A program made the translations under genes and the position numbers. From assembly GCF_005160265.1 (NCBI RefSeq), contig NZ_CP039865.1:3248828-3312827 (forward strand): a DNA stretch of 64,000 nt, given 5' to 3'. Shown here piece after piece: positions 42,996 through 52,132 of this stretch (positions are counted from its first letter, which is position 1; each line of letters begins with the position of its first letter). The notes beneath the pieces are model-generated. The model was not told the DNA's origin. It made no database searches and worked only from the letters and a program-made list of their open reading frames with translations. Source of the stretch: Phreatobacter aquaticus (GTDB lineage Bacteria > Pseudomonadota > Alphaproteobacteria > Rhizobiales > Phreatobacteraceae).

Positions 42996-43694
42996 ATGAA
43001 ACTCACCTGGTTCGGCCATTCGGCCTTCCGCATCGAGATCGGCAAGGCCGTCGTCCTGCTCGATCCGTTCCTCACCGGCAATCCGTCGTTTACCGGCAAC
43101 CGAGCCGAGGCGATCGCCGGCGCGACCCATGTGCTGCTGACGCACGGCCATTCCGACCATGTCGGCGACGCCCTGTCGATTGCCGAGGAAACCGGCGCCA
43201 AGGTCGTCACCAACTACGACCTCTGCATGTATCTCGCCGCCAAGGGCCTCAAGGCCTTCGACCCGATGAATTGCGGCGGCACCACCGACCAGGGCGATTT
43301 CACGGTCACGCTGACCAATGCGCTCCATTCCTCGTGCGACTTCCATGACGGCATCAGCCATGCGCTGGGCAATCCGAACGGGCTGATCATCAAGCAGAAG
43401 GGCGGGGTGGTGCTCTATGCGATGGGTGACACCGACATGATGCCGGACATGGGCCTGATCGCAGAATATCACAAGCCGACCCACGCGCTGGTGCCGGTCG
43501 GCGACCGTTTCACCATGGGCGGCGATGCCGCGGCCTTCGCCTGCCGCAAGTTCTTCAATTTCGACACCGTCCTGCCCTGCCACTACGCGACCTTCGGCCT
43601 GCTCGACCAGACGGCCGACAAGTTCGTCGCGGGTATGTCGGGTTCTAAGACCAGGGTCGCGGTGCCGAAGTCGGGCGACAGCGTCACGTTCTGA
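42996..43694 (+). CDS. UPF0173-type metal-dependent hydrolase
   Basis: 232-residue metallo-beta-lactamase-fold protein without signal peptide. The metal site is LLTHGHSDHVGDA (HxHxDH), with further ligands likely in VLYAMGDTDMMPDMG and LPCHYATFG. Start KLTWFGHSAFRIEI and the overall length match the UPF0173 family closely. The family's natural substrate is unknown. It is monocistronic and divergent from ruvX. Confidence 0.93.
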   Translation: MKLTWFGHSAFRIEIGKAVVLLDPFLTGNPSFTGNRAEAIAGATHVLLTHGHSDHVGDALSIAEETGAKVVTNYDLCMYLAAKGLKAFDPMNCGGTTDQGDFTVTLTNALHSSCDFHDGISHALGNPNGLIIKQKGGVVLYAMGDTDMMPDMGLIAEYHKPTHALVPVGDRFTMGGDAAAFACRKFFNFDTVLPCHYATFGLLDQTADKFVAGMSGSKTRVAVPKSGDSVTF

Positions 43695-43731
43695 GGGAGT
43701 AAGGCGCCGCTGCAGCGGGATGCTTCCGTTC

Positions 43732-43824
43732 GTCATGGCCGGCCTTGTGCCGGCCATCCACGACTTAAAATAACGAAGGTCAGAAGGAAAAGACGTGGAT
43801 GCCCGCCACAAGGGCGGGCATGAC
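43732..43824. repeat. REP-like pair A (two 31-bp palindromes, inverted)
   Basis: Left unit 43732-43762: GTC, then hairpin ATGGCCGG-CCTTGTG-CCGGCCAT, then CCACG. Right unit 43794-43824, in inverse orientation: CGTGG, hairpin ATGCCCGCC-ACAAG-GGCGGGCAT, GAC. The units share loop and flanks but differ in stem sequence, and are separated by 31 bases. The pair lies between the convergent genes for the UPF0173 hydrolase and FolE. Confidence 0.9.
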
Positions 43825-43874
43825 GACGATCAGTGGCAGACCTGACGGCTATTCCGTGCGTTGCCCGCCTTAGC

Positions 43875-44507
43875 TCAGCTCCTGAAGCCGCGCACCATGG
43901 TCATGAAGCGCACCTGTTCGGTGGCGTCGTCCTTGAACAGACCGGTGAATCCGGTGGTGACCGTCGAGACGCCCTGCTTCTGCACGCCGCGCATCGACAT
44001 GCACATGTGCTCGGCCTCCACCAGCACGGCGAGGCCGCGCGGCCGCAGCGTCTCCTCGATGACGTTGGAGATCTCGGCCGTCATGTTCTCCTGCGTCTGC
44101 AGGCGGCGGGCGAAGATATCGACAACCTTGGCGAGCTTGGAGAGCCCCACCACGCCCTCGCGGGGGTAATAGGCGATATGCGCGCGGCCCATGATCGGCA
44201 CGATATGGTGCTCGCAATGGGAGAAGAACGGGATGTCGCGCACCAGCACGATGTCGCCATAGCCGCCGACTTCCTCGAAGACGGTGCCGAGTTCCTTTTC
44301 CGCCGACTGGCCATAGCCGCGGAACAGGTCTTCCCAGGCCTTCGCCATGCGGCGCGGCGTATCAACCAGACCTTCGCGGTCCGGGTCGTCGCCAACCCAT
44401 TCGATCAGCGTGCGGACGGCGGCCTCCGCTTCCTCGCGGGATGGGCGGCGCCGGTGCTTGACGTCGGATCCCTTGCCGACGGGAAGGGTCGTTACGACGG
44501 CGTCCAT
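43875..44507 (-). CDS. folE: GTP cyclohydrolase I
   Basis: First enzyme of tetrahydrofolate synthesis, GTP to 7,8-dihydroneopterin triphosphate. 210 residues; zinc-binding [12 protein letters not shown] (Cys, His) and the second cysteine in [36 protein letters not shown] and [12 protein letters not shown] are all present, so it is the zinc-dependent type IA enzyme. Divergent from the IscU-like gene. Confidence 0.97.
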
Positions 44508-44580
44508 GACTCAACACTCCGAAACGGGCGGCGGGACTCTTCGCTCATAACGTCGCAGAAGCTGAACAGTTACGCGGGCG

Positions 44581-44598
44581 CGCGCATTTATTTGCGCG
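44581..44598. promoter_or_regulatory. Inverted repeat in folE/IscU-like intergenic region
   Basis: CGCGCA-TTTATT-TGCGCG, a perfect 6-bp inverted repeat with an AT loop, in the 231-base divergent region. Possible operator or small hairpin; no regulator can be named. Confidence 0.3.
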
Positions 44599-44698
44599 TC
44601 GGCGAACGGATCCTCCCCTACGTGAGCCCAGTCCGATCTCAGGCCGGACTTTAAGGACTACACGCGACGCATATATGATGGATGCATCTGAACGGCCC

Positions 44699-44714
44699 AT
44701 GAACGATTGTTCAT
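44699..44714. promoter_or_regulatory. Inverted repeat upstream of IscU-like gene
   Basis: ATGAAC-GATT-GTTCAT, a perfect 6-bp inverted repeat, 24 bases before the GTG start of the IscU-like gene, at a place where a repressor could block transcription. The region just upstream (TATATGATGG) could hold a -10 element. Confidence 0.4.
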
Positions 44715-44738
44715 CTGGCGCCCCGCGAGGTTCTGTCC

Positions 44739-45185
44739 GTGATCAACGACATCTACAACCGCCGCATCCTGGAACTGGCCGCCGAAATCCCCCGTCAGGG
44801 GCGACTTGCCGCGCCGGATGCGAGTGCCACCGCCCATTCCAAGCTCTGCGGCTCGACCGTCACCATCGACCTCTCGATGGATGGCGACCGCGTCACCGAT
44901 TTCGCCCATGAGGTGAAGGCCTGCGCGTTGGGGCAGGCCTCGTCCTCGATCATGGCGCGCCATGTGGTTGGCTCGACCGCGGAGGAGCTCCGCGCGCTGC
45001 GCGACACTGTCCGCCGCATGTTGAAGGAGGGCGGCAGCGCGCCCGAGGGCAAATGGGCCGATATCGCGGTCCTGGAGCCGGTGCGCGACTACAAGGCGCG
45101 CCATGCCTCCACGCTGCTGACCTTTGACGCCGTGGTCGATGCCATTGGCAAGATCGAGGCGGCGCGAGTGCAGGCTGCCGAATAG
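44739..45185 (+). CDS. IscU/NifU-N-like Fe-S scaffold homologue lacking the third cysteine
   Basis: 148 residues of IscU fold. Two of the three cluster-ligand cysteines are present: C37 (KLCGS, without the usual following Asp) and C62 (VKACALGQAS). The third position, expected near residue 124 after the Arg of YKARHAS, holds no cysteine. The rest of the domain (IYNRRILELAAEIP, DFAHEVKACALGQASSSIM) is well kept. It is therefore probably an accessory scaffold or carrier rather than a standard IscU. In relatives such proteins sit next to yidD; here a leftward FAD enzyme gene separates the two. Confidence 0.85.
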   Translation: MINDIYNRRILELAAEIPRQGRLAAPDASATAHSKLCGSTVTIDLSMDGDRVTDFAHEVKACALGQASSSIMARHVVGSTAEELRALRDTVRRMLKEGGSAPEGKWADIAVLEPVRDYKARHASTLLTFDAVVDAIGKIEAARVQAAE

Positions 45186-45191
45186 GACCGG

Positions 45192-46340
45192 TCAGGCCGC
45201 GGTGTGCGGCGGCGGCGCACCGCCGAACAGATCGGCCACCGTCTCCTCGGCAATGGCGAAGGAGGTCGAGGCGCCGGTGCCGCTGGTGACCATGACGAGG
45301 CGGACATTCGGTTCCGGCGCGTCGGTGAACATGACGCCCGGGCCGGAAGGATAAATGCCAGTCCAGCGCTCAGCGATCCGGCGGCCCGGCAGATCCAGCA
45401 CCGCGTCGAGTTCGCCCATGATCAGGTCGTCGACGCTGGTCGGCGCGAAAGGATCGGGCGTTGGGCCGTAGTGATGGCTGTCGCCGACCACCAGCGAGCC
45501 GTCGGCCGATTGCACCGCGATCAGGTGGATGCCGTTGTCGAGCATGTCCGATCGCTCGGCCTTGAGCCGGGCTTTCAGCGGGGTGGCGGCGTCGAGATCG
45601 GCATAGCCGGCATAGCGCACCAGGCCGAAATCCGACATGACGGCCGCCCCGAGCGTCAGGGGGCGGGCAGGGGCGACGCGCATCATGTGCAGCTTGCACT
45701 TGGTGGGGCCGCGCGCCGCGATCCGATCGGCATAGAGGGTTAGGAAATCATCGTTCGGACAGACGATGACGGCGCCGGCCTCGAACACGCCCGCCGAGGT
45801 GTCGATCCGGGGCGGCTGGACGGCGGTGACCGCCACCTGCCGGCGGATCGTCACGCCATGGGCTTCTTCCAGATAGGCCGCGAGCTTGGGGATTGCGGTC
45901 CGGCTTTCGACGCGGATCTCCTCGTCGGACCAGAGCACTTCGCCAAGCGTTTCGCGGCGCAGCGCCGGCACCTTCTCCAGCGCCTCGGCGGTGGTCAGCA
46001 GCCGGCAGCGCTCTGCCATTTCGGTTGCGAGGAAGGCGGCAAGCACCTGGCGCGACTCGTCAAAGCGCGTCGCGACCGCGAGGCCCCGGTGCTCCACTGC
46101 GATCCCCGCCTTGGGCGCGATTTCCGCCCAGATGTCGCGCGAGCGTCGCGCCCGCCGCCAGGGCAGGCCGCGTTCCTGACCGGTGACGGTGACGAAGCCG
46201 AAATTGCGTACCGAGGCGCCGTTCGCCTGGGCGTCGCGGTCGAGCACGACGACCCGCAGCCCCCGCCTGGCGGCGGCAAGGGCATGGGCAAGGCCGAGAA
46301 TGCCGGCACCGACAACGGCGAGATCGAAGATGTTGCTCAT
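45192..46340 (-). CDS. FAD-dependent oxidoreductase (DAO family, HpnW/TIGR03364-like)
   Basis: 382 residues. N-terminal FAD-binding motif DLAVVGAGILGLAHALAAA followed by VVVLDRDAQANGASVRNFGFVTVTG, and the C-terminal VMVTSGTGASTSFAIAEE block of glycine/D-amino-acid oxidase folds. SVRNFGF after the dinucleotide site recalls the subfamily linked elsewhere to phosphonate degradation genes (TIGR03364), but no phosphonate gene is present here. It lies on the opposite strand between the IscU-like gene and yidD, interrupting a pairing common in relatives. The substrate is probably an amine or amino acid; not determinable. Confidence 0.85.
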   Translation of the reverse strand: MSNIFDLAVVGAGILGLAHALAAARRGLRVVVLDRDAQANGASVRNFGFVTVTGQERGLPWRRARRSRDIWAEIAPKAGIAVEHRGLAVATRFDESRQVLAAFLATEMAERCRLLTTAEALEKVPALRRETLGEVLWSDEEIRVESRTAIPKLAAYLEEAHGVTIRRQVAVTAVQPPRIDTSAGVFEAGAVIVCPNDDFLTLYADRIAARGPTKCKLHMMRVAPARPLTLGAAVMSDFGLVRYAGYADLDAATPLKARLKAERSDMLDNGIHLIAVQSADGSLVVGDSHHYGPTPDPFAPTSVDDLIMGELDAVLDLPGRRIAERWTGIYPSGPGVMFTDAPEPNVRLVMVTSGTGASTSFAIAEETVADLFGGAPPPHTAA

Positions 46341-46409
46341 GCCAACCCGCTTAGCCGCGCTGCGTGACGGCTTCAACACCGCTCGCCGCTGTCATGCTAG
46401 ACAACCGCC

Positions 46410-46775
46410 ATGTCCGACCTCGACCGCCTGTTCGACGACATGCGTCCCCGCCGCTGGCCGCGGCTGATCGGGCACGGGCTCATCCGCACCTATCAGCTGA
46501 CCATCTCCATGCTGGTCGGCCGCTGGTGCCGCCACATGCCGACCTGCTCGGCCTATATGGACGAGGCCATGCTGCGCCACGGCTTCTGGGCCGGCGGCTG
46601 GATGGGCGCTGCCAGGCTCTGCCGCTGCCATCCGCTGGGCACTGGCGGCATCGACAACCCGCCGACCGCTTTGCCGAGCAACGCCCGTTGGTTCCTGCCC
46701 TGGCGCTATGGCACCTGGCGCTGGAACCGCGGCGGACCGGTCTGCGAACCCCTCAGAAATCCGGATCCTTTGTGA
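46410..46775 (+). CDS. yidD: Membrane protein insertion efficiency factor YidD
   Basis: 121 residues, with the YidD core: IRTYQLTISMLVGRWCRHMP, TCSAYMDEAMLRHGFWAGGW and LCRCHPLGTGGIDNPP. YidD assists YidC-dependent membrane protein insertion as a small membrane-associated factor. It has longer N- and C-terminal ends than E. coli YidD (85 residues), as in other alphaproteobacteria. Its 3' end overlaps the convergent gene at 46753 by 23 bases. yidC itself is not in the window. Confidence 0.93.
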   Translation: MSDLDRLFDDMRPRRWPRLIGHGLIRTYQLTISMLVGRWCRHMPTCSAYMDEAMLRHGFWAGGWMGAARLCRCHPLGTGGIDNPPTALPSNARWFLPWRYGTWRWNRGGPVCEPLRNPDPL

Positions 46776-47448
46776 CCAGGCCATAGGTCTCCATCAGGCC
46801 GCGGGTCGGATAGAACGGCTCGTAGCGGTCGCCGTCGAGATAGACCGACAGCGTCGGGTCGAGCCCCATTTCAGTCAGATAGGCGCGCACGCGCTCCAGG
46901 GCCGCTCCGATCAGGCGGGCGCGCAGCGCATCGGGCAATTCGCCGCCGGCCTGATGCTTGAAGTCCACCGGTGCGATCGAGATCGTGGCGCCGGGCGCCG
47001 CCGACCGGTTCACACCCGCCGCCAGCAGGTAGAAGCAGGCGGCGTGACAATCGCCATCCATCGTGAGTGCGGGCATCTCGCCCGAGCGGTCCGTGCGGGC
47101 GACGATCGTGTCGAGGCCGGCGCGCCGCACGATACGGCCGAGCGCCAGCGTCACGTCGACGATCCCACCCTGCGAGTGGATGACCAGTGGCGGCCGGGCG
47201 CCGCCCAATTGCCGCGCGAAGGCGTCGAACGCGACCACGGTCCCCGGCAGCACGACGCCCTCCGCGACGATCCAGCTGGAACATCCGGGGCCGCAGGCAT
47301 CCGCCGTCCCGGTGATCAGAGTGAAGGTCATGGCGACCGGCAGAGCGGGCGCCGGCGGCGCGGGCAGCGCGTTCTGCTGCTGGGCCAGCGCTCCACCCAG
47401 CCCGGCAAGGAGCGCGATCAGCAGCGGCAGGGCGGCGCGAGTCGTCAT
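46753..47448 (-). CDS. Periplasmic ClpP/crotonase-fold-like protein (COG3904 type)
   Basis: 231 residues with a signal peptide (RAALPLLIALLAGLGGALA, then QQQ). The mature part shows PLVIHSQGGIVDVTLALGRI and a later DCHAACFYLLAAGVNR. These are the two blocks typical of COG3904 periplasmic proteins, which have a ClpP-like fold with a possible serine (SQGG) nucleophile position. Four cysteines (ACGPGCSS and DGDCHAAC) could make disulfides. Catalytic activity is unproven for the family. GTG at 47457 is an alternative start. Convergent and overlapping with yidD. Confidence 0.75.
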   Translation of the reverse strand: MTTRAALPLLIALLAGLGGALAQQQNALPAPPAPALPVAMTFTLITGTADACGPGCSSWIVAEGVVLPGTVVAFDAFARQLGGARPPLVIHSQGGIVDVTLALGRIVRRAGLDTIVARTDRSGEMPALTMDGDCHAACFYLLAAGVNRSAAPGATISIAPVDFKHQAGGELPDALRARLIGAALERVRAYLTEMGLDPTLSVYLDGDRYEPFYPTRGLMETYGLVTKDPDF

Positions 47449-47672
47449 GCCCCGCACTCTAGGGGTTCGGCGGCGGCGCCGGAACGGCGTGGAAGTTCGG
47501 ATGGAGCCGTGCGCGCCGCCGATTGCCCTTGGCGTCCCGGTCGGTTATTCCGGCGCCTCGGCCCTTGCGGGATGCTGCTTGTTCGTGCGCGGCAAGTCCT
47601 CTGACGGCCGTTCAACCCTGAAGACCAACCCCTTACCTGCTCTGTCGGCAGGAGTGAGCGGAGAGACCCAAA

Positions 47673-49640
47673 ATGCCCGTCCTGACCTTCCCTGATGGCG
47701 CCAGCCGCACCTACGATGCCGGAATGAGCGGCCTCGATGTCGCCAAGGCCATCGCCCCCTCGCTTGCCAAGCGTTCCATTGCCGTGAAGCTCGATGGTGT
47801 CGTCACCGACATCACCGATCCGATCCTGCATGACGCGAAGATCGAATTCCTCACCCGCGAGAGCGCGGAAGCCCTCGAGCTGATCCGTCACGACGCCGCC
47901 CATGTGATGGCGGAAGCGGTGCAGAAGCTGTGGCCGGGCACCCAGGTGACCATCGGCCCGGTGATCGAGAACGGCTTCTACTATGATTTCTTCCGCGCCG
48001 AGCCGTTCACGCCCGATGATTTCGCGGCGATCGAGGCCGAGATGCGCAAGATCATCCAGGCCAACAAGCCCTTCACCAAGCGCGTCGTGTCGCGCGAGGA
48101 GGCCATGCAGATCTTCCGCGACAAGGGCGAGGCCTTCAAGGTCGAGCTCGTCGAGGCGATCCCGGGCAACCAGGACATCAAGCTCTACGACCAGGGCGGC
48201 TGGTTCGACCTCTGCCGCGGGCCGCACATGGCCTCCACGGGCCAGATCGGGAATTCCTTCAAGCTGATGAAGGTTGCCGGCGCCTATTGGCGTGGCGATT
48301 CCAACAATCCGATGCTGACGCGCATCTACGCCACCGCCTGGCGCACCGACGACGAGCTCAAGGCCTATACCCACATGCTGGAAGAGGCCGAGAAGCGGGA
48401 TCACCGCAAGCTTGGCCGGGAACTCGACCTGTTCCACTTCCAGGAGGAAGGGCCGGGCGTCGTGTTCTGGCATCCCAAGGGCTGGTCGATGTTCCAGACG
48501 CTGGTGGCCTATATGCGCCGCCGCCTTGCCGAACACGGCTATGACGAGGTCAACGCGCCGCAGTTGCTCGACAAGTCGCTATGGGAGACCTCGGGTCACT
48601 GGGGCTGGTATCGCGAGGCCATGTTCGCGGCCCAGTCGGCCGGCGACGAGGCCGAGGACAAGCGCTGGTTCGCCCTCAAGCCGATGAACTGCCCGGGCCA
48701 TGTGCAGATCTTCAAGCACGGCCTGAAGTCCTATCGCGACCTGCCGATGAAGCTTGCCGAATTCGGTGCGGTCCATCGCTACGAGCCGTCGGGCGCGCTT
48801 CACGGTCTGATGCGCGTGCGCGGCTTCACCCAGGACGACGCGCATGTGTTCTGCACCGACGAGCACATGGCCTCCGAGTGCATCCGCATCAACGACCTGA
48901 TCCTGACGACCTATGCCGATTTCGGCTTCGACGAGATCGTGGTGAAACTGTCCACGCGCCCTGAAAAGCGCGTTGGCACCGATGCGATGTGGGATCGCGC
49001 CGAAAGCGTGATGAGCGAGGTCCTTCAGACCATCGCCGACCAGTCGGGCGGACGGATCAAGACCGCGATCAATCCGGGCGAGGGCGCCTTCTATGGCCCG
49101 AAGTTCGAATATGTGCTGCGCGACGCCATCGGCCGCGACTGGCAGTGCGGCACGACCCAGGTCGATTTCAACCTGCCGGAACGCTTCGGCGCCTTCTATA
49201 TCGGCTCGGACGGCGAGAAGACCACGCCGGTGATGATCCATCGCGCCATCTGCGGCTCGATGGAGCGGTTCATCGGCATTCTCATCGAGAATTTCGCCGG
49301 TCATTTCCCGCTCTGGTTCGCACCGAAGCAGGCGGTGATCTGTCCGATCACCTCCGAGGCCGACGATTACGGCACCGAAGTGCTGGCGGCCTGCCGGAAG
49401 GCTGGGCTCCGGGTCGATGCGGATCTTCGCAACGAAAAGATCTCCTACAAGGTGCGCGAGCACTCGCTGCAGAAGATCCCGGTCATCATCGCGGTCGGCA
49501 AGAAGGAAGCGGCCGAGCGGACCGTCTCCATCCGACGCCTGGGAAGCCAGGCGCAGGAGACCATGACCCTCGACGCCCTGATCGCGACACTGGTGGAAGA
49601 GGCCCTGCCGCCGGATGTGAGGCGCAAGCGCGGGAATTGA
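47673..49640 (+). CDS. thrS: Threonyl-tRNA synthetase
   Basis: Charges tRNA-Thr. 655 residues with N-terminal TGS domain (about 1-62), editing domain with [11 protein letters not shown] (about 73), and class II core. That core shows the zinc ligand cysteine in [43 protein letters not shown] (motif 2) and [20 protein letters not shown] (motif 3), then an anticodon-binding domain (about 550-650). No T-box or operator hairpin is evident in the 215-base leader. A tRNA-Thr(UGU) gene lies 14 kb downstream. Confidence 0.98.
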
Positions 49641-49698
49641 GGCTGGGTCGCAGCGACGTCTTGGGGGGGCTCTGTTCTTTTGCCCAGTCCTCTCCATC

Positions 49699-49729
49699 GT
49701 CATGGCCGGGCTTGTCCCGGCCATCCACG
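49699..49729 (+). repeat. REP-like unit B-left
   Basis: 31-bp palindromic unit: GTC, hairpin ATGGCCGGG-CTTGT-CCCGGCCAT, CCACG. Same class as the left members at 43732 and 50199. It ends 3 bases before the stop codon of the GIY-YIG gene. Confidence 0.92.
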
Positions 49730-49732
49730 CCT

Positions 49733-50023
49733 TCAATGGAGCGTCTCGTATAGGTCCGTCCAATCGGGATTGATCGCCATGATTGTGCGAACTTTCCAAG
49801 CGCGAGGCCATCGTTTCATCGAGGTCTCACGTTGGATGGCATCGCGGATGTCGTCGAAGCGCTCAAACCAGACCAGGTGCTTGAGACGATGGCGCCGTGT
49901 GAAGCCCGGTAGTGTTCCCTCACGATGCTCAAAGCATCTGCGCGACAAGTCACTGGTCACGCCAAGATAGAGCGTCCCATTGGGCCGATTGGTCATGATG
50001 TAAACCCAGCCGCCGCGCTCCAC
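49733..50023 (-). CDS. GIY-YIG nuclease-domain protein between REP-like units
   Basis: 96 residues, one GIY-YIG domain (UPF0213/YhbQ-like size). The first motif is VYI at 7-9 (GWVYIMTNRPNG), the second YLG at 19-21 (LYLGVTSDLSRR). The catalytic-type Arg is at 28-29, and the metal-binding Glu at 66 (QRETSMKRW), so the active site looks intact. GTG start with GGAGG 8 bases upstream. The gene fills almost the whole 340-base interval between inverted 31-bp palindromes. Standalone GIY-YIG proteins are DNA-nicking or cleaving enzymes of mostly unknown role; the context suggests a link with repeat maintenance or spread. Confidence 0.88.
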   Translation of the reverse strand: MERGGWVYIMTNRPNGTLYLGVTSDLSRRCFEHREGTLPGFTRRHRLKHLVWFERFDDIRDAIQRETSMKRWPRAWKVRTIMAINPDWTDLYETLH

Positions 50024-50069
50024 CGCGTCCCTCCGCCGACTTCGCGAAAAGCGGCTTCAGCATGCAAGA

Positions 50070-50100
50070 CGTGGATGCCCGCCACAAGGGCGGGCATGAC
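50070..50100 (-). repeat. REP-like unit B-right
   Basis: 31-bp unit in inverse orientation: CGTGG, hairpin ATGCCCGCC-ACAAG-GGCGGGCAT, GAC, identical to the right member at 43794-43824. It lies 47 bases upstream of the GIY-YIG start codon. Confidence 0.92.
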
Positions 50101-50198
50101 GCGGAGGGTTGGTGACCAAGCGGGGGCGTTGCTGACGCGCGAAGCAGCCAGGGCGCCATAGTGTCGGACGACCACGCTTGAGTTCAATCCTATCCACC

Positions 50199-50287
50199 GT
50201 CATGGCCGGGCTTGTCCCAGCCATCGACGCCTTTGCTTCTGTGGGCAGGTTTGAGACGTGGCTACGCCCCACGAGGGCGGGCATGAC
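50199..50287. repeat. REP-like pair C (degenerate)
   Basis: Left unit 50199-50229 matches unit B-left with two changes (CCAGCCATCGACG). Right unit 50257-50287 is a decayed form of the right class (CGTGGCTACGCCCCACGAGG then GCGGGCATGAC), with a broken stem. Spacer 27 bases. It lies between the GIY-YIG element and the convergent secreted-protein gene. Confidence 0.85.
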
Positions 50288-50318
50288 GGGGAGGGAGCGC
50301 GGCGAACGAAGCTGGCGC

Positions 50319-51401
50319 CTACCGCGCCACGACCTCGATCTGCAGGTCCTTGCCGGCTTCCACCTGGAACTTCCGGTTGAACACGCGGCCCTCGTGGCGG
50401 GCGATGGCGAGATATTCGCCTTCCTGCAGCACCATCTGCGGATAGGCGCCGATCGATTCCTTGATCACGTCGCCGCCTGGCGTCAGCACGGTCCAGGCGG
50501 CATTGCCGATTGGCTCGCCGCCCTCGCGGCCCTGTACCAGCCGGAGGCTGATATTGGCGGCGCGGTGATGGATGGTCGCATCCGTCACCTGGCCCGCGCG
50601 GATGCGAATGTCGGCGCGGATCAAGGCATTGGCGTCGCCATAGACCGAGACCACGTGATAGGTGCCCTCGGGCAGCGCGATCAGGTCGCCGGCCGGAGCC
50701 TGGCGCATGACGAGCTTGGGCTCACCGCCCTCGAACAGGCCGCCGGAAAAGATGTCGAACGACAGGCGGGCATTGCCAATGCCACGGTCACCGACCTTGC
50801 CGGCCAGCCGCAGCGCGCCCGCATTCATGGCAACCGTATCGCGGAACGGCTGGGTGCCGATCTCCATCCGCCTGGCGATGGCATAGGTGCCATAGGCGGC
50901 ATGCAGGATATAGCCGCCGGGCCTGAGCGCGAAGGTCGGCGCGGCGTCGCGCGATTCGGCGACCAGCGCGAAGGCGCCATCGGCTTCGGGCCGGTCGGAA
51001 AACACCCGCCAATAGAGCCCGTCGCGGATATATTGGCCGTTGGCTCCGAATTTGGCGTCGAGGGCCACCGGCGTCCGGTCGGTGAATTGCGGCGTCACCG
51101 CATTGGGCCGAGGTTGCGTGCCCGGCAACATCAGCGCCGGGTTGGTGCCGGTCTGCGGTGCAAAGGGCAGGGCGGTGTCCGGCAGGGAGAAGAAGGGAGC
51201 CGCGGCTCCGCCCGGCGTGTGACGGCGCCGGCGCAGCGGTTCATTGACCAGCGGCGCCAGTTCGTTGCGGTTTTCCTGGGTCAGCGGCCGTCCGACGCGA
51301 TTGGAAAAGGGGTCTCTGTCCTGCGCGACCGCAGGCAAGGCGGCGGCGACTAGCGCGGCGGCCATGACGAGACGGAAAAGGCGAAGCGGTGCCGGAGCCA
51401 T
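50319..51401 (-). CDS. Secreted protein with three repeated beta modules
   Basis: 360 residues with a signal peptide (LFRLVMAAALVAAALPAVAQ). After a Pro-rich linker (about 25-110) come three related segments: LRPGGYILHAAYGTYAIARR, LPEGTYHVVSVYGDANALIR and LQEGEYLAIARHEGRVFNRK. Each has a (P/E)G-(T/E)Y turn, followed by beta strands ending in hydrophobic runs such as ANISLRLV and LQIEVVAR. This suggests tandem immunoglobulin-like or transthyretin-like sandwiches. No enzymatic motif is seen. Function unknown. Confidence 0.8.
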   Translation of the reverse strand: MAPAPLRLFRLVMAAALVAAALPAVAQDRDPFSNRVGRPLTQENRNELAPLVNEPLRRRRHTPGGAAAPFFSLPDTALPFAPQTGTNPALMLPGTQPRPNAVTPQFTDRTPVALDAKFGANGQYIRDGLYWRVFSDRPEADGAFALVAESRDAAPTFALRPGGYILHAAYGTYAIARRMEIGTQPFRDTVAMNAGALRLAGKVGDRGIGNARLSFDIFSGGLFEGGEPKLVMRQAPAGDLIALPEGTYHVVSVYGDANALIRADIRIRAGQVTDATIHHRAANISLRLVQGREGGEPIGNAAWTVLTPGGDVIKESIGAYPQMVLQEGEYLAIARHEGRVFNRKFQVEAGKDLQIEVVAR

Positions 51402-51553
51402 GGCGCGAACATCTCGCGGTGGAATGTGGCCTTTTTGGTGCCTTGGCTCCAAGGAGGCAAGCGCAAAGCGCCACGCACCCAACTGTGAGCATCCGCCCCC
51501 TTGGCGAGGCGCGGGAAGACACGTAGGGGAAGGACGCAGATGAGAGACCGCAC

Positions 51554-52132
51554 ATGAGCCGCAATGCCTTGCTGACCGACTATCTGAAGACCCGCCGTTC
51601 CGTGCCGTTTCCGCTGATGGCGGAGCCCGGCCCCGATGCCGCGACACTGGCCGAGATGCTCGAGATCGCCGCGCGCGTGCCGGATCACGGCAAGCTCGCG
51701 CCCTGGCGATTCCTGATCATCGATCGCGCTGCCGGCGCGAAGCTCGCCGACAGGCTGGAAATGCTGGTGCGCGAGAAGGACCCGGAGGCCGACGCCAAGC
51801 GGATCGAGATGGAGCGCGGCCGGTTCACCCGCGCGCCGGTCTGCGTCGCCGTGATCTCACGTGCCGGTCCCCATGTGAAAATCCCCGAATGGGAGCAGGT
51901 GCTCTCGGCCGGCGCGGTCTGTCTCAACCTGCTGCATGCCGCCGTCGGCTTCGGCTTCGGCGGCAATTGGGTCACCGAATGGTGCGCCTATGACCGCCGC
52001 TTCCTCGATAGTCTCGGGCTCGCGCCGGATGAGAAGCTCGCCGGTTTCGTCCATCTGGGAGCCCCCACCGCCAAGGCCGAAGACCGGGTGCGCCCGGACA
52101 TGGCCGCCATCACCTCCCGTCTCGAGATCTGA
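51554..52132 (+). CDS. Nitroreductase-family protein
   Basis: 192 residues, FMN-dependent nitroreductase fold of the YdjA-like short type: LKTRRSVPFPLM, IAARVPDHGKLAPWRFLII, EQVLSAGAVCLNLLHAAVGFGFGGNWVTEW and GFVHLGAP. Members reduce nitro-compounds, quinones or flavins with NAD(P)H. Followed after 9 bases by a flavin reductase-like gene, likely an operon, so flavin-dependent redox chemistry on a shared small molecule is plausible but unproven. Confidence 0.9.
   Translation: MSRNALLTDYLKTRRSVPFPLMAEPGPDAATLAEMLEIAARVPDHGKLAPWRFLIIDRAAGAKLADRLEMLVREKDPEADAKRIEMERGRFTRAPVCVAVISRAGPHVKIPEWEQVLSAGAVCLNLLHAAVGFGFGGNWVTEWCAYDRRFLDSLGLAPDEKLAGFVHLGAPTAKAEDRVRPDMAAITSRLEI

Follow-up and report, generated by a model that had tools for sequence, protein, structure and literature searches.

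A GIY-YIG nuclease gene framed by inverted CGTC-type REP-like hairpins in Phreatobacter aquaticus, a candidate partner enzyme for these repeats

The window, a 64,000-nucleotide stretch of the Phreatobacter aquaticus genome that was analysed as a whole, carries a small nuclease gene between two hairpin repeats in the gap that follows thrS (47673-49640, + strand). This gene was found in 12 of the 12 genomes of the genus and served as the left neighbour for the comparison with empty sites. The first repeat, a CGTC-type REP unit at 49699-49729 on the + strand, lies downstream of the nuclease gene and is made of a 9-bp stem, ATGGCCGGG, a CTTGT loop and a CCACG tail, with the C of its CGTC tag at 49698. 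The nuclease gene itself (49733-50023, - strand) encodes a protein of 96 aa that matches the GIY-YIG domain PF01541; it starts with GTG and stops 3 bp from the downstream unit. The other CGTC-type unit, upstream of the gene at 50070-50100 on the - strand (stem ATGCCCGCC, loop CTTGT), is inverted relative to the first. Two 31-bp units in opposite orientation enclose exactly 340 bp, 291 bp of which are the gene, just as the initial annotation had described. The right neighbour used for the empty-site comparison is a 442-aa ORF on the - strand (50319-51647).

Further units of the same kind lie close by. Directly beside the gene-bearing pair is a second, gene-free pair on which the initial annotation is silent, composed of a degenerate unit at 50199-50229 (+ strand; one stem mismatch and an altered tail) and its degenerate partner at 50257-50287 (- strand), recognised from its sequence; since the two pairs adjoin, the thrS gap holds two elements. 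Another gene-free pair, at 43732-43824, had been described as made of the same two units as the gene-bearing one. This is nearly right, not strictly so: by sequence, the unit at 43794-43824 (- strand) is identical to that at 50070-50100, whereas the unit at 43732-43762 (+ strand) is not quite the same as its counterpart at 49699-49729, one stem pair having changed with compensation.

A survey by Di Nocera et al. (2013, PMC3733652) describes CGTC repeats as having an unpaired CGTC (or TGTC/CCTC) tag, a stem of 8-9 bp beginning with AT, a loop of 4-5 nt and a CCA tail; they occur mainly in alphaproteobacteria and for the most part as head-to-head dimers. In the window pair, each unit has an unpaired CGTC at one end; the stem ATGGCCGGG starts with AT and is followed by the loop CTTGT and the tail CCA; and the units are multicopy (59 places) and mostly head-to-head dimers (36 of the 55 listed units are paired). 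By sequence, the window units are CGTC-tagged REPs and fit the published description in every point.

A generic unit pattern matched 59 places genome-wide, two of which resemble chance matches by eye, and its reversed form, used as a control, matched none; likewise, a unit search with up to three mismatches gave 49 places in the genome and none when reversed. Leaving out two 28-mers and the two chance matches, we typed 55 regular units, of which 18 pairs stand head to head with their starts under 450 bp apart. The outer length is 77-96 bp in 17 of these pairs, and the remaining one, of 402 bp, is the pair that contains the nuclease gene. Stem positions covary among the 55 units (at one position, for example, C-G in 27, G-C in 25, A-T in 2 and a mismatch in 1), and such compensated changes at several positions indicate that the hairpin is conserved, beyond mere sequence. 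An Rfam RNA was rejected as the identity of the hairpins, given that a search of 43500-50600 returned only sub-threshold matches to microRNA precursors. Among these, the gene-free pair (43731-43825) matched mir-5882 on both strands, at 32.5 and 32.4 bits against a gathering threshold of 95, which is probably a chance likeness between hairpins.

The encoded protein belongs to the GIY-YIG superfamily, with its PF01541 domain (47.6 bits, cut-off 22.6) and the catalytic Tyr, Arg, His and Glu. Two features that the initial annotation had read from the letters, a good Shine-Dalgarno and an intact-looking active site, were both borne out: GGAGG precedes the GTG start, and in an alignment of 202 sequences, the window protein included, Tyr8 is conserved in 198, Tyr19 in 197, Arg29 in 202, His33 in 201 and Glu66 in 199, as is Lys70 in 200. 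We take the first five of these to be the residues usual for the GIY-YIG catalytic site. The closest solved structures by sequence are UPF0213 proteins, PDB 1zg2 (E = 2e-16) and 1ywl (E = 9e-13). The window genome has two other GIY-YIG genes. One lies within a 684-aa frame, taken for UvrC; the other (L001/L260) is also small and is framed by hairpin pairs of the family TCATCCTGAGGTGCGAG, which is found at 79 places in this genome.

The association of the nuclease with hairpins extends well beyond the window. From a scan of genome contigs, we kept the best 80 of 538 relatives, mostly alphaproteobacterial, and took the other ORFs at the same loci as controls. At 35 of these 80 loci, strict CGTC units were present within 400 bp on both sides of the gene, an arrangement seen for 5 of the 749 control ORFs (p = 4e-34); units on any side were present at 50 of the 80 loci and for 34 of the 749 control ORFs. 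The nuclease-hairpin association is not due to chance, and the expectation in the initial annotation that GIY-YIG homologues would be flanked by the units far more often than other genes was confirmed. An enzyme gene flanked by inverted REPs, a feature of the RAYT REPtron, is seen in the window and at the 35 loci; the nearest units face inward at 21 of these 35, and the other arrangements account for 5, 5 and 4 of them. The strict scan left 30 of the 80 loci without a unit; 24 of these 30 were inspected by eye, and most of them have longer or variant hairpins that were left uncounted. Six of the 80 loci have titles from outside the alphaproteobacteria (Bacteroidetes, Parcubacteria, Dehalococcoidia, Armatimonadetes, Nomurabacteria and Ignavibacteria), and at least one strict unit is found at each of them; all six are metagenome assemblies, so contamination is possible.

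A test independent of the motif gave a similar picture. Inverted similarity between the 250-bp flanks was detected at 55 of 77 loci (the best 80 of 538, minus three with short flanks) against 42 of 774 control ORFs; among controls that, like the nuclease genes, could be compared over intergenic sequence to the left and right, it was detected in 10 of 225. With flanks of 300 bp, a comparable test was passed by 77 of 128 different GIY-YIG genes drawn from 150 order genomes; these 128 remained from 143 places after removal of duplicates and short flanks, and were chosen by us among the matches listed in a way that favours multi-copy genomes. Three of the 128 (L011, L020 and L031), which we take to be of the YhbQ-like type, scored only 8-10 in the flank test.

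Within the genus, nuclease clades and repeat families go together. The 12 genomes hold 15 homologues in three clades, A (six genes), B (five) and C (four). Each of the 15 genes is accompanied, at no more than 400 bp, by units of the repeat family that belongs to its clade; in 11 genes these units stand on both sides. The motif finder found no unit of the other families among the three beside any of the 15. Both clade-A copies of G156 were missed by the motif finder, and their units were read by eye (on both sides of one copy, and upstream only of the other). Four of the 15 genes (L259 in clade A; L256, L257 and L261 in clade B) have cognate units on one side only and so stand beside, not within, a pair. 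The pairing is kept where two or three clades coexist, as in G000 (the window genome, whose second small nuclease, L260, belongs to clade B), G019, G101 and G156. The two clade-A genes of G156, L259 and L262 (C1:93717-96089), are near-identical and about 2.1 kb apart, which looks like a tandem duplication including flanking sequence.

The 15 genes are spread over 10 different sites, as judged by comparing some 1.5 kb of flanking sequence. Sites are shared only among G065, G101 and G155 (clade A), between G019 and G153 (clade B) and between G019 and G154 (clade C), and units are present in all three of these groups, which comprise seven of the 15 genes. Homologues that share a locus without flanking units, which the initial annotation had named as a finding that would speak against it, were not seen among them. 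Beyond the genus, the TCATCCTGAGG repeat family (family B) accompanies eight of eight genes for proteins with the motif LRC[ARS]DG, against 1 of 194 other homologues, the protein motif and the repeat motif both having been chosen after examples were seen; five bacterial families are represented among the eight genes, and three of these genes belong to the genus. A crude test of whether similar proteins have similar flanks, run across bacterial families, was negative (121 of the 128 genes; 48 wins against 50 losses, with 23 ties; rho 0.04), and we therefore claim the pairing only within the genus and the LRC[ARS]DG group. We think that the similarity measure of this test is dominated by short chance matches.

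The coding sequences appear to be maintained. The dN/dS ratio is 0.04-0.35 in 19 of the 22 within-clade pairs that were computable, with dS saturated in several, and 0.10-0.35 in 8 of the 10 clade-A pairs with computable dS; this set comprises five of the six clade-A genes, one clade-A and one clade-B gene having been omitted. Such ratios indicate that the nuclease genes are under purifying selection. Two decayed copies were noticed, L263 of G101, with an internal TAG, and the copy of TomTYG73, in which one base is missing.

The number of units tracks the nuclease gene only loosely. Among 150 genomes of the order, the median number of CTTG-loop units is 6 in those with a homologue (n = 91) and 1 in those without (n = 59; Mann-Whitney p = 5e-4, a value that, like those below, ignores species kinship), and at least 10 such units are found in 35 of the 91 genomes with a homologue and in 12 of the 59 without. 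In the genus, family-A units number 44, 44, 50, 59 and 102 in genomes with a clade-A gene and 14, 15, 18, 20, 36, 41 and 103 in those without (p = 0.025). Family-B units number 48, 48, 76, 79 and 83 with the clade-B gene and 8, 14, 19, 20, 28, 53 and 60 without (p = 0.017, the decayed G101 copy being scored as present), and for family C there is no significant relation with the clade-C gene in the genus (p = 0.24). The largest count of family A, 103 units, is that of G154, from which the clade-A gene is absent; similarly, G152 has 111 family-C units and lacks the clade-C gene. The idea that unit number would follow the gene is loosely borne out in the order sample and for families A and B, but not for family C, for G154 and G152, or for the 12 gene-less genomes of 59 with at least 10 units.

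Comparison with relatives shows that the gene-bearing pair is a presence/absence variant. Within the stretch of up to about 1.5 kb downstream of thrS, the nuclease gene was found in none of 11 relatives, and the 442-aa right neighbour in 10 of 11, with at least 1 kb of other sequence in between in G065, G153 and G154. The thrS gap of G156 and G150 contains a gene-free pair of the window family, degenerate in G150, and that of G152 a family-C pair. G132 has a single fused hairpin in this gap, and G019 a similar single hairpin ending in ATGAG. Fused hairpins with GTCAT at both ends occur at 37 sites in 10 of the 12 genus genomes, against none in the reversed control, and none was found in the window genome. 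These 37 symmetric GTCAT...ATGAC palindromes resemble two joined outer halves of units, and may be scars of excision, products of slippage or targets.

Outside the genus, a comparable variant was found in Sphingobium plasmids, in the gap between fnrL and a regulator gene, where the gene, with a unit on either side, is present in seven records, four of which have the same sequence across the query, and absent from four others. We aligned four of the seven filled sequences and all four gene-free ones. Two of the four gene-free sites (TomTYG64 and, with imperfect arms, TomTYG74) consist of one palindrome made from the outer halves of both units, and this palindrome is absent from the other two. 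From its sequence, the palindrome could either be a deletion product between repeated arms or represent a palindromic target as it was before insertion. In Shinella, of the gene-free plasmids three have no units and diverged borders and three have a short gap only, so the exact target was not obtained; in Rhizobium, no exact empty site was found among the matches listed (40 of 142 and 30 of 295 records). In none of these comparisons did we see an insertion, with exact borders, at a site free of repeats. Fused hairpins could also arise by replication slippage between repeated arms, for which the nuclease is not needed.

We propose that the gene and its two units form one element, a CGTC-type REPIN with a nuclease spacer in a RAYT-like layout, whose nuclease acts on cognate hairpins; we hold this reading with moderate confidence. 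A REPIN is a pair of REP hairpins placed head to head, and here the spacer would carry the GIY-YIG nuclease gene. The nuclease would most probably recognise its own hairpin family when this is single-stranded, as at replication forks or during DNA uptake, and nick the cognate hairpin at one set position. The pairs of that family that lack a gene would be non-autonomous copies acted on in trans. When both units are nicked, the segment between them could be freed or copied, or a single fused hairpin could be left behind. Such a layout would parallel the action of RAYTs on GTAG-tagged REPs, although the enzymes are unrelated. That the nuclease binds and nicks the hairpins, prefers single strands and drives the spread of the repeats is our inference. 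It is likely that the nuclease recognises the hairpins specifically, and plausible, if somewhat doubtful, that it drives the spread of the repeats in RAYT fashion. More broadly, and with similar reserve, we suggest that GIY-YIG nucleases might be the missing mobilisers of CGTC REPs and thereby a second class of REP-mobilising system, of unrelated chemistry, with each clade moving only its own family, several such pairs coexisting in a genome and the fused hairpin as the scar of excision. The initial annotation had already raised a RAYT-like role for the nuclease. The association with flanking units, the pairing of clades with families, the absence of PF01797 and the presence/absence variant all favour this role, but the loose relation between unit number and gene does not.

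Hairpin recognition may instead serve the cell, by limiting DNA uptake or recombination or by clearing hairpins at forks, and mobilise nothing, with the gene held amid its targets by autoregulation or selection. The purifying selection and the loose relation between gene and unit number would suit such a service, as would the Neisseria relative Ssn, which reportedly modulates transformation. However, a gene of the host should keep to a single conserved locus, and the 10 sites of the 15 genus genes, always beside matching units, together with the presence/absence variation, count against this explanation, which we consider rather unlikely. GIY-YIG is also a classical homing endonuclease fold, and the nuclease might cut gene-free hairpins and have its gene copied in by repair, while the REPINs spread by other means. 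Gene-free and gene-bearing pairs do have common ends, and over about the first 30 residues the protein gives weak matches to profiles of group I intron and phage homing endonucleases. Yet efficient homing should fill many pairs, and 1 of the 18 listed head-to-head pairs is occupied; same-clade genes of relatives are, moreover, often at unrelated places. We consider homing improbable.

Two further explanations carry far less weight. The units might be ordinary REPs moved in trans by a RAYT, the GIY-YIG gene being a passenger; RAYTs are held to move GTAG REPs, according to the accessible part of PMC3733652, but the same part of that survey reports no tyrosine transposase gene flanked by CGTC repeats. 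The RAYT domain PF01797 had no match in the window genome, nor in 10 of the 11 relatives, a set that includes draft assemblies, and RAYT action is therefore no explanation here. As the pairing of clades with repeat families also speaks against it, this possibility is very slight, and it is largely refuted for the window genome. Chance flanking supposes that REPs fill so many intergenic spaces that some gene ends up between two of them, and the units of the window genome do lie mostly between genes, as judged by inspection. The controls drawn from the same loci refute it, and its probability is negligible. Transcription terminators alone were likewise rejected, because they would leave the clade-matched repeat families unexplained.

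Few repeats are as common in bacterial genomes as REP elements, and the 2013 survey, in its accessible part, found no enzyme for the CGTC portion of them, which "apparently lack a dedicated transposase" (PMC3733652). The window nuclease makes a good candidate for the enzyme that CGTC REPs seemed to lack, and the pairing of clades with hairpin families makes the question of the enzyme testable with small proteins and oligonucleotides. If our proposal is true, the RAYT way of life would have arisen with two unrelated enzymes, and there would be many nuclease-target pairs of predictable specificity. Separately, we observed another type of GIY-YIG protein, starting with MWYVYI or MFYVYL. In each of the four cases inspected (L004, L006, L008 and L186), its gene follows a tRNA gene at a distance of about 100-300 bp; the first three were noticed before the tRNA scan and the fourth was picked by protein type. 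The tRNAs are tRNA-Ala (twice), tRNA-Leu and tRNA-Tyr, and by eye a palindrome begins right after the CCA end of each. It is possible that this type is a second repeat-linked family, one that uses tRNA ends.

The suggestion in the initial annotation that no system of this composition is known was too strong, since CGTC REPs had already been published (PMC3733652). GIY-YIG single-strand nucleases specific for a repeat (Ssn) have also reportedly been described, in 2025. In our literature searches, GIY-YIG was not found jointly with "repetitive extragenic palindromic", with CGTC and REP, or with dRS3, and a wider search found no link from GIY-YIG to REPs among the matches listed. "GIY" was not found in the accessible text of the 2025 RepRanger paper (PMC12306157) or of the 2018 HUH survey (PMC6006769), and PMC10928387, a candidate for a GIY-YIG/RAYT link, was discarded as "rayt" is an author name in the part of it that is accessible.

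The window element resembles the CGTC REP superfamily in its CGTC tag, 9-bp stem starting with AT, 5-nt loop, CCA tail, head-to-head dimers and occurrence in alphaproteobacteria. It differs in that PMC3733652, as far as its accessible part goes, has no dedicated transposase or partner nuclease for these repeats, whereas here a GIY-YIG nuclease is both cargo and statistical partner. With RAYT/REPIN systems, the window element shares a repeat-flanked enzyme gene, many gene-free pairs and few enzyme genes per genome, all of which are general properties of RAYT systems. The differences lie in the enzyme, which matches PF01541 and not the unrelated PF01797 of the HUH Y1 transposases, and in the tag, which is CGTC in place of GTAG. 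Free-standing GIY-YIG homing endonucleases have the same catalytic domain, but the window gene lies inside a multicopy hairpin pair, and no intron or intein was seen there. The UPF0213 proteins (1zg2 and 1ywl) are the best solved relatives by sequence, but the presumably YhbQ-like L011, L020 and L031 stand apart by their low flank-test scores.

Another parallel is Ssn, site-specific single-strand GIY-YIG nucleases that reportedly recognise a repeat in Neisseria (Chenal et al., 2025, Nature Communications). To our knowledge, that paper does not contain a mobile-element reading. Like the window protein, Ssn is a small single-domain GIY-YIG protein. A homologue in Neisseria gonorrhoeae, which may be ssn, agrees with the window protein at 40 of 89 residues and sits in an array of CGTC-1/dRS3-like units, in keeping with that account. 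Single-strand specificity and a cut site, reported for Ssn, would be predictions for the window clade. If that account of Ssn is right, recognition of cognate hairpins by this nuclease family is largely established, and what would remain new is how the element is built, the matching of clades to repeat families within genomes, the alleles that lack the gene or consist of a fused hairpin, and the connection with the question of an enzyme for CGTC REPs.
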